Positions 18,102 to 20,347 of a DNA stretch of 64,000 nucleotides are shown one piece after another (position 1 is the stretch's first letter; the number at the start of each line of letters is the position of its first letter). This stretch comes from Moraxella sp. VT-16-12. Lineage in GTDB: Bacteria; Pseudomonadota; Gammaproteobacteria; Pseudomonadales; Moraxellaceae. The notes beneath the pieces were generated by a model. That model searched no databases and was not told where the DNA came from. It saw only the letters and a program-made list of their open reading frames with translations. The stretch lies in NCBI RefSeq assembly GCF_002224245.2, contig NZ_NKHK02000001.1:248001-312000 (forward strand), written 5' to 3'. The translations under genes were made by a program, and so were the position numbers.

Positions 18102-19268
18102 CTACCACTTAGCATCCGCTTTTAAGATGTCTGCCTTGTCAGTTTTTTCCCACGTAAAGGCGTGGTCTGTGCCATGACGACCAAAATGCCCGTAACTGGC
18201 GGTAACTTCATACATTGGCTGCAGTAAATCTAGCATACGAGTAATGCCGTAGGGGCTTAGGTCAAAATGGGTACGAATCAGGCGAATGATTTCATCATTG
18301 GAGACTTTGCCAGTATTAAAGGTATTGACTGAGATGGAAGTTGGTTCAGCCACACCAATGGCGTAGGACACTTGCACTTCAATACGCTCGGCAAGCCCTG
18401 CTGCCACGATGTTTTTGGAGACATAACGCCCCGCATAAGCTGCCGAACGGTCAACCTTTGATGGGTCTTTGCCACTAAATGCCCCACCACCGTGGCGAGC
18501 CATACCGCCGTAGGTATCTACGATGATTTTACGCCCTGTCAAGCCAGCGTCGCCCACAGGTCCACCGATGACAAATTTGCCTGTGGGATTGATGTGATAT
18601 TTGGTGCCGGCGTGCAAAAGCTCAGCAGGGATTACTTGTTTGATAATCTCTTCCATCACCGCTTCGTGTAAGTCGCTTTGGCTAATCTCTGGGGCGTGCT
18701 GAGTGGAGAGCACCAAAGCATCAATGGCAAGTGGGCGATGAGCGTCATCATAACGCAAACTTACCTGAGCTTTGGCGTCAGGGCGTAGCCAAGGCAGTGT
18801 GCCATCTTTACGCAGTTTGGCTTGACGCTCCATTAGGCGGTGAGCCAGTTCAATGGGAGCAGGCATGAGTACATCGGTTTCGTTGCAGGCATAGCCAAAC
18901 ATCAAGCCTTGGTCGCCTGCACCTTGGTCTTCTGGGCGTTGTCTGTCCACGCCTTGGGCGATTTCAGGCGACTGTTTGCCAATCATGTTAATCACCGCAC
19001 AGCTGCTGCCATCAAAGCCCAAATCACTGTGGTTATAGCCGATTTTATTGACTGTACGGCGAACGATGGCTTCTACGTCTATGTTGGCGTGCGTGCTAAT
19101 CTCGCCGGCCAGCACCACCGCGCCTGTCTTTACCAATGTTTCGCACGCCACACGAGCGTCTTTGTCTTGGCTTAAAATCTCATCAAGCAGAGCGTCAGAG
19201 ATTTGGTCTGCCATCTTGTCGGGGTGTCCTTCTGAGACAGACTCTGAGGTAAATAGTTGATAATTCAT
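18102..19268 (-). CDS. metK: S-adenosylmethionine synthetase
   Basis: Makes S-adenosylmethionine from methionine and ATP. The 388-residue protein carries the family signatures: [13 protein letters not shown] (ATP/Mg site), [32 protein letters not shown] and the P-loop-like [16 protein letters not shown]. The end [15 protein letters not shown] is also typical. The start codon has no clear Shine-Dalgarno (AAAATCCT precedes it). It is preceded by about 165 bases of leader with apparent RNA structure, described separately. metH, which supplies methionine, is also in this window but far away. Confidence 0.97.
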
Positions 19269-19444
19269 AGGATTTTCACAATTTAAATTAAAAAACTTAC
19301 GACATTCTGGTGGCTTTTCATCATTTGCCTTGATGAAAGATAAAACGATAAAATGGCAAATCTAGGCTTGACAGAACAGGCAATGCCCAAAATCGTAAGG
19401 CGAGAATATCTATCATTTATGTAGATATTTGGGGGTGAATTATA
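19269..19444 (-). promoter_or_regulatory. metK leader: candidate structured RNA with a -10 box
   Basis: On the minus strand a TATAAT (19439-19444) lies about 170 bases before metK. The leader then shows: an 8-bp hairpin AATATCTA/TAGATATT (19422-19429 with 19405-19412); a long-range 7-bp match CTTACGA/TCGTAAG (19393-19399 with 19296-19302), followed at once by six Us (19295-19290); and inside it an 8-bp hairpin TTTCATCA/TGATGAAA (19331-19338 with 19316-19323). That hairpin's loop AGGCAAA can pair with ATTTGCC at 19355-19361, a possible pseudoknot. The layout resembles a riboswitch or attenuator, but it matches no SAM riboswitch class that I can recall. A 31-codon ORF (19321-19416) overlaps the region and could be a leader peptide instead. 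The -35 is poor. Confidence 0.4.
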
Positions 19445-19519
19445 CATGATTTTTATTAAAAAAGGGCTGATAAACAAAAAAATATTTTCAATCAAGGATG
19501 AATGACGTTCATTAAAATT

Positions 19520-20347
19520 TTAGTCAAAGTAAAAATTATCCATATCTGTCAGCTCACGCTCTAATACCTTTGTCATGATTTGATGATTGATGAGCTGACT
19601 ATTTTGTAATAAGGTAAGATTATCAGGATTGAATAAAGGATTATTTAAAAGTGGATGTATGATAGATAATAAACATTGAGCAAGATAACTATTGATGGGT
19701 AAAATCATTGTTGGCTGTTTGTGATAAAAATTATTTGCCAAAATTTTTAAATACTCTTTTAATAAAATGGGCTTGCCAACAAAATCATACACGCCATTTT
19801 TATGATGAGTGATGATGTTTAAAACACCCAAACAAACATCATGAATGTGAATGGGCTGTATCATAAAGCGACCGTCATTAGGCAGTATCCAAATTGGCAA
19901 CTTGGCAAGGGTTACAAACAATCTGGTGCTGGCACCGCCTTTGCCAAATACCAGTGATGGGCGTATGATACTGACCTTAAAATCATCATCAGTCAAATCA
20001 AGAATGGCTTTATCGCCACGCCCTTTGCTGCCCAAAAACCCAATGGGATGCTGACTGTCTGCACCTAATGCAGATAGGTTTATCCAGCGTTTGACCCCTT
20101 GCTGTTTGGCGATGGTGGCAAGCTGTTTGGGGGTATGGTGATGGATGGTTTCCATGCGTTTATCATCGCTCATCACCCCAATGGCATTGATGACAAGGTC
20201 AATGCCAGCAAACAAATCAGGCATGATAGTTGGCTCATTAAAATCCAATGAGCGTGAGGATAGGGTTTTGACATTAAATAATGGTTTGATGGCATGATAA
20301 ATATGCCTGCCAATAAACCCTGTATGACCAAATAATAAAACATTCAT
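19520..20347 (-). CDS. NAD(P)-binding epimerase/dehydratase-like protein
   Basis: A 275-residue Rossmann-fold protein of the extended/atypical short-chain dehydrogenase group. The N-terminus LLFGHTGFIGRHI is the nucleotide-binding glycine motif. LVINAIGVMSDDKR, WINLSALGADSQHPIGFLGSK and IIRPSLVFGKGG follow; in place of the usual YxxxK there is an SK dipeptide in GFLGSKGRGD. Redox or isomerase activity is therefore uncertain. I start at ATG 20347 to give a canonical N-terminus rather than 33 bases upstream. It is the last gene of a run starting with a GbsR/MarR-like regulator. The substrate is unknown. Confidence 0.72.
   Translation of the reverse strand: MNVLLFGHTGFIGRHIYHAIKPLFNVKTLSSRSLDFNEPTIMPDLFAGIDLVINAIGVMSDDKRMETIHHHTPKQLATIAKQQGVKRWINLSALGADSQHPIGFLGSKGRGDKAILDLTDDDFKVSIIRPSLVFGKGGASTRLFVTLAKLPIWILPNDGRFMIQPIHIHDVCLGVLNIITHHKNGVYDFVGKPILLKEYLKILANNFYHKQPTMILPINSYLAQCLLSIIHPLLNNPLFNPDNLTLLQNSQLINHQIMTKVLERELTDMDNFYFD

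Follow-up and report, generated by a model that had tools for sequence, protein, structure and literature searches.

A conserved structured RNA in the metK leader of Moraxella, a candidate terminator-embedded metabolite switch

Several leader RNAs resemble the one described here in layout, position or expected output. The HMP-PP (thiS motif) riboswitch (PMC6478431) is a compact element at thiamin genes, associated with a single pathway, and its terminator stem carries a loop of abnormally high conservation; it is an ON switch in which the ligand suppresses termination, and its aptamer state possibly includes a pseudoknot. RNAs restricted to single taxa and lying immediately 5' of metK are described in PMC2864571, namely the SAM/SAH motif of Rhodobacterales and the SAM-Chlorobi motif of Chlorobi. 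In Leyn et al. 2014 (PMC4239095), metK is under the control of SAM-I (S box) elements, and comparative genomics yielded a metXZ element, a lineage-specific RNA at methionine genes of beta-proteobacteria.

Here, we describe a conserved RNA structure in the leader of metK in Moraxella, define its parts across the genus, and propose how it may couple the supply of S-adenosylmethionine (SAM) to transcription of the gene. The work started from a preliminary description of a 64,000-nucleotide stretch of DNA from Moraxella sp. VT-16-12 (hereafter the window), in which the metK leader occupies about 165 nt of the minus strand and begins directly after a TATAAT hexamer. The positions of its parts are collected in Table 1.

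Table 1. Parts of the metK leader and adjoining features, in window coordinates
Feature	Position	Strand	Remarks
-10 promoter hexamer TATAAT	19439..19444	(-)	in 21/21 Moraxella leaders, 11-12 nt 5' of CCAAAT
5' conserved element CCAAATATC with hairpin P0 (AATATCTA/TAGATATT)	19405..19432	(-)	CCAAATRYC in 21/21; hairpin P0 itself 19405-19429, upstream of P1
P1 left arm CUUACGA, outer/terminator helix	19393..19399	(-)	changes on both sides in 6/7 pairs
P2, small hairpin (GGC/GCC)	19379..19387	(-)	5' side, between P1 and inner stem; from RNAalifold of the clade
Inner core stem, left strand GUUCUG	19372..19377	(-)	pairs with 19304-19309; 6/6 bp in 21/21
Conserved core, 5' half UCAAGCCUA	19363..19371	(-)	invariant or nearly so in 21 leaders
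P3 helix AUUUGCC/GGCAAAU with loop	19323..19361	(-)	arms 19355-19361 with 19323-19329; covaries in the window's clade
Conserved core, 3' half GAAAAGCCAC	19310..19319	(-)	AAAAGC.AC in 21/21
Inner core stem, right strand CAGAAU	19304..19309	(-)	0-1 nt from P1 in 21/21
P1 right arm UCGUAAG	19296..19302	(-)	pairs with P1 left arm
U-tract, six U, terminator-like	19290..19295	(-)	directly 3' of P1
Weak Shine-Dalgarno-like GUGA	19276..19279	(-)	AAGTGA at the matching place in most relatives
metK (S-adenosylmethionine synthetase), downstream gene	18102..19268	(-)	ORF of 388 aa; protein-search relatives in 94/96 genomes

In layout, the HMP-PP riboswitch appears to be the closest precedent: there too a compact structure serves one pathway, and the stem below a conserved loop continues into a U-tract. 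The likeness is one of arrangement and not of family, as the two are unrelated in sequence, the metK element has no Rfam match, and it would be expected to act as an OFF switch rather than an ON switch. With the SAM/SAH and SAM-Chlorobi motifs it shares a place directly upstream of metK and a restriction to one taxon, although the taxon differs. The core of those motifs is different from that of the metK element, and they act through control of the ribosome site, in contrast to the apparent terminator here. Transcription termination would be the expected output of the metK element as it is of SAM-I. SAM-I has a separate terminator and antiterminator and an aptamer built on a four-way junction; in the metK element P1 itself meets the U-tract, and no Rfam match links the two. 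The metXZ element belongs to other genes and another lineage.

Relatives of the locus were gathered from 96 related genomes, which were searched both with the DNA and with the MetK protein. The genus sample consists of 22 Moraxella genomes, which take in M. catarrhalis, M. bovoculi, M. cuniculi, M. oculi, M. oblonga and others, and metK was found in 21 of them. The remaining genome, G019, stands outside every count of 21; it is complete, gave no metK and almost no candidates whatever the search, and seems unsearchable rather than metK-less. The downstream protein we take to be MetK, the name given to it in the preliminary description. A regular expression for the core finds the element 5' of metK in all 21 genomes, with its parts in a single order from 5' to 3': CCAAATRYC, the left arm of P1, the optional P2, the left strand of the inner stem, UCAAGCCUA, a variable insert, RAAAAGCCAC, the right strand of the inner stem, the right arm of P1 and the U-tract.

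Comparison of the 21 leaders revealed which of the pairings seen in the window are general. Aligning the leaders of relatives, the check proposed at the outset, found the paired positions to be conserved with compensatory change. The long-range helix followed directly by six U, here P1 and the U-tract, is present as first described and is kept by compensatory changes across the 21 leaders, shrinking to only 5 bp in three of them (G005, G006 and G008). The inner stem, absent from the pairings first listed, is likewise kept by compensatory changes: it occurs as AUUCUG/CAGAAU or GUUCUG/CAGAAU, as AUUUUG/CAAAAU in five genomes and as CGCUUG/CAAGUG in G003. What lies between the two core halves varies, being P3 in the window's clade, one base in 12 of the 21 leaders and a different insert of 53 nt in G015. 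P3 is present and covarying in 8/8 genomes of the window's clade (variants GCC/GGC, AC/GU and GUU/AAC), and its left arm, once thought to form a pseudoknot with the loop of an 8-bp hairpin, instead belongs to this nested helix. The 8-bp hairpin in question (TTTCATCA/TGATGAAA, loop AGGCAAA, 19316-19338) can be drawn in the window sequence; by eye it is limited to the window's species among the 21 leaders, and it would consume the invariant core bases 19315-19319.

P2 is variable and by eye was not found in 6/21 leaders. RNAalifold on a MAFFT alignment of the window's clade gives it 4 bp with covariation. A second 8-bp hairpin noted earlier, P0, is likewise present in the window sequence; the window's clade and G015 share its nearby partner, whereas the 5' element has no good partner in 7/21 leaders (G005, G016, G012, G014, G009, G007 and G020). 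In G004, G006, G008 and G013 the AAATACC of the 5' element pairs with a GGTATTT adjoining the inner stem, a pairing that would cross P1 and may represent an alternative fold, though not a general one (4/21 genomes). By eye, the leaders of L042 and L048-L050 contain CTTGTG or a near copy of it twice, near the 5' end and as the left arm of P1, and the 5' copy is a possible competitor for the right arm. At the other end of the leader, the window has only a weak GTGA in place of a clear Shine-Dalgarno, as had been remarked, and most relatives carry AAGTGA about 6 nt 5' of the ATG.

Sequence identity is distributed very unevenly over the element. It averages 93% in the core loop (19 nt, UCAAGCCUA...RAAAAGCCAC) and 86% in the inner stem, and falls to 53% at the third codon positions of metK and 47% in P1. 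Despite that 47% identity, 95.9% of P1 cells are paired (21 distinct sequences). Such a pattern, with pairing kept in a helix of free sequence and sequence kept in the loop above it, is what a binding pocket carried by a structural stem would be expected to leave. RNAalifold places two further G-C pairs in the loop of the core, and being invariant they allow no covariation test. The U-tract keeps a fixed place directly after P1: at positions 1 to 6 after the helix, T is found in 18, 19, 21, 21, 21 and 18 of the 21 leaders, which overall contain 36% T, and each of the 21 has at least four T among the six. The window lies in contig C11 of G000; its copy of the leader, a duplicate of the one from G000, was left out of the identity figures, as well as of the all-pairs test and tree simulations given below. 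The metK coding sequence of G005 (L042) groups with those of G016 (L043) and G012 while its leader is nearly that of G007 (L050), a mismatch that suggests recombination near the border between leader and gene.

Folding of the window leader by itself is unremarkable, with a minimum free energy of -31.8 kcal/mol (z -0.59) that 55 of 200 shuffles equalled or bettered. Evidence for the structure comes from the comparison of leaders. In alignment A5 (21 leaders), where the P1 alignment was fitted to the covariance model, 97.8% of the cells of P1 and the inner stem are paired, and changes on both sides occur in 10 of the 13 pairs (4/6 in the inner stem). None of 500 shuffles reached the observed pairing of the two helices, and sliding their registers lowered it to 25-45%. 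To allow for the model-fitted alignment and for the shared ancestry of the sequences, we ran a tree-aware simulation, in which columns evolved independently along the leader tree and the metK tree with as many changes as were observed. For P1 the simulated columns were on average 50-55% paired, with a maximum of 73% against the 95.9% observed; for the inner stem they averaged 77-80%, with a maximum of 97% against 100% observed. In both cases 0/2000 simulations reached the observed value on either tree. The number of P1 cells changed on both sides was likewise reached by 0/2000 simulations, while for the inner stem alone this number was reached by 80/2000 on the leader tree and 7/2000 on the metK tree. 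An all-pairs G-test with the tree null over 2346 column pairs gave none at E<0.05, the best structural pair having E 0.07-0.38, probably due to sequences that are too few and too closely related.

A check that needs no alignment points the same way. In 18/21 leaders the 9 nt 3' of the inner stem can pair over at least 7 bp with another segment of the same leader, compared with 10% of shuffled arms. When only Watson-Crick pairs are counted, at least 6 bp are found in 11/21 own leaders, versus 10% for arms of other groups and 3% for shuffles; with G-U pairs allowed, 54% of cross-group arms also reach at least 6 bp. We also built a covariance model, R1, from 12 leaders of other clades, deliberately leaving out G003 and eight leaders of the window's clade. 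R1 found 9/9 of these unseen leaders (E 1.1e-8 to 5.8e-7 in 199 kb) and gave no match in the supplied metK regions of other genera. Its search set was made up of 30 metK loci (L031-L060), four of L022-L030 and the window; outside it stood L001-L021, which are the same places, and L022-L024, L026 and L028, from the genomes of L052, L056, L057, L055 and L059.

For the window's clade aligned by plain MAFFT, RNAalifold recovered P2 and P3 in addition to P1 and the inner stem. When all 21 rows were aligned by MAFFT (A1), it returned only the inner stem and the two G-C pairs of the loop, missing P1 because MAFFT shifts this helix by one column between clades. Together these analyses make a conserved structured RNA in the Moraxella metK leader well supported by comparative sequence evidence. 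The predicted probability of P1 without ligand ranges from 0.00 to 0.99 across leaders, and P1 is therefore not uniformly ligand-dependent.

We determined the distribution of the element with a second model, R2, built from 22 aligned matches. R2 finds the element in 20/22 genomes of the genus, missing G019 and also G003, whose core is present by regular expression. There is one copy per genome, at metK, except for a weak extra match in G000. Overlapping samples of 299 genomes from the family, 390 from the order and 398 from the phylum, searched with stricter filters that can lose weak matches, gave matches in Moraxella only. The core pattern, scanned across 84,980 species, returned 11 stretches, ten from Moraxella and one from a spirochaete MAG (L097). 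The last lies inside a coding sequence, presumably queF from its appearance, and was taken as chance. The matches to a looser 16-base pattern that were listed for viral contigs are such as chance would produce, and they were put aside.

Other matches were set aside. The extra match in G000 (L062, 1501-1587; G000:C4:28275-28361, minus) has E 0.002-0.003, a 7-bp stem and a near-core loop and no U-tract; it overlies a terminator-like hairpin of the opposite strand, and no other genome of the genus gave a second match. Its neighbours we take to be a hemE-like gene and a fimbrial-type gene, and the match itself to be chance or a relic. A still weaker one, L063, was discarded as well. Six extra DNA matches in G007 (L064-L069) to about 19352-19390 of the leader are identical copies of a repeated coding region, presumably insertion-sequence-like, and not copies of the element; their likeness to the leader, 82% identity over 39 nt, is probably coincidence.

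The element matched no Rfam family. The window gave no Rfam 15 match at the gathering threshold; at E<=10, positions 19100-19700 gave six weak unrelated matches, none below E 0.66, and the 20 other leaders had no match at E<=1 to any family, SAM and SAH riboswitches included. Among the papers listed on metK leaders, SAM riboswitches and Moraxella noncoding RNA, supplements aside, we found no description of it, and the main text of three large motif surveys (PMC11109978, PMC8632094 and PMC6429828) mentions neither metK nor Moraxella. The element thus appears to be undescribed so far and confined to Moraxella. The structured RNA that the preliminary description had supposed in this leader is borne out by the covariation and by the R1 matches to leaders outside its training set.

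The regulatory setting of the gene gives a reason to consider SAM. MetJ (PF01340) was detected in 0/22 Moraxella genomes, with a positive E. coli control, and Leyn et al. 2014 (PMC4239095) report that Moraxellaceae have no orthologs of MetR; a regulatory gap may thus exist that the element fills. In that paper the MetR box is ATGAA-N5-TTCAT. A MetR-box-like palindrome, TGAA-N5-TTCA, stands at 19499-19511 of the window (minus strand), beginning 67 nt before the -10 hexamer, and the palindrome begins exactly 37 nt before that hexamer in 8/21 Moraxella metK promoters (L040-L046 and L050). The nine promoter sites match in number the nine occurrences of the palindrome counted over the 86 kb of the 21 loci.

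The Moraxella leaders combine covarying helices of a conserved 5' UTR structure, an invariant unpaired core, a U-tract fixed to the closing stem and an exclusive link to metK, a SAM-pathway gene that follows the element in 21/21 genomes. From this we infer, with moderate confidence, that the leader is a Moraxella-restricted cis-regulatory RNA that senses a metabolite as an OFF switch, with its aptamer embedded in the terminator and SAM as the likeliest ligand. SAM is favoured because the gene is metK and because MetJ was found in none of the 22 genomes; as the element occurs at one gene only, nothing but its association with that gene points to the ligand. We propose more tentatively, as a possibility short of probable, that Moraxella species, M. 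catarrhalis among them, have a new SAM riboswitch class of their own: the aptamer would be the upper part of the terminator hairpin, and the ligand would build the terminator directly.

In the proposed mechanism, transcription would start just 5' of CCAAAUAUC. A start downstream of 19393, which had been raised against the element, is not indicated: the TATAAT precedes the element in every one of the 21 leaders, so that transcription most likely starts upstream of it. The nascent RNA would then form a small aptamer in which 6 bp close an asymmetric loop, UCAA-GC-CUA...RAAAA-GC-CAC, and which would adjoin the outer helix P1 (with 0-1 nt between them on the 3' strand), and P1 would lead straight into the U-tract. 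Binding of a ligand to the invariant loop would fix P1 on the inner stem, giving one stacked helix of about 13 bp before the U-tract. This helix would act as an intrinsic terminator and stop metK transcription when SAM is plentiful. Without ligand, P1 would form late or weakly, and the polymerase would read through. Termination control is favoured because the inner stem and P1 would stack into the U-tract. A consensus terminator scan of the leader, limited to loops of 3-8 nt, found none, and no antiterminator common to all clades was found among the 21 leaders.

It seems unlikely, though worth weighing first, that the element is a metK riboswitch or attenuator that senses another compound (SAH, methionine or another SAM-cycle metabolite) or acts on translation. 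The core is invariant in the manner of a ligand pocket, yet metK alone would be under its control, and the weak conserved AAGTGA just 3' of the U-tract would suit an effect on translation. SAM, however, is the product of MetK, the attachment of the U-tract to P1 favours termination, and no conserved pairing that would mask the start site was noticed. A protein-binding site is a more doubtful proposition: MetK itself or another RNA-binding regulator would recognise the conserved loop and stabilise or block the terminator, and a short stem with an invariant loop would fit this too. MetK is not known to bind RNA autogenously. Control by metabolites is usual for metK leaders (PMC2864571).

A leader-peptide attenuator, in which translation of a 31-codon ORF (19321-19416) would sense methionine supply and decide whether P1 forms, is very improbable. 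Such an ATG ORF is present in the window and had been named as a rival, but the ORFs of the 21 leaders vary in start and length and hold 0-2 Met codons each, and it is the loop that is conserved and no reading frame. Chance complementarity in AT-rich sequence, which the shuffle comparison of the window alone and the all-pairs search would allow, is hardly credible either, being refuted for P1 and the inner stem by the tree-aware helix test, the shuffled alignments and the recovery of untrained leaders by R1, and still standing for the 8-bp hairpin within the core.

The reading that we prefer, a SAM-responsive terminator-embedded switch, makes the metK element a direct and testable candidate answer to how Moraxella controls SAM synthesis. 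If SAM is bound, the element would add one more independent way of recognising SAM, and a small one, and would provide an OFF counterpart to the terminator-embedded layout of the HMP-PP riboswitches. Its occurrence in one genus suggests that broad surveys can miss RNA classes of this kind. In Moraxella, whose members include pathogens of humans and of animals, it would be a regulatory element of an important gene.
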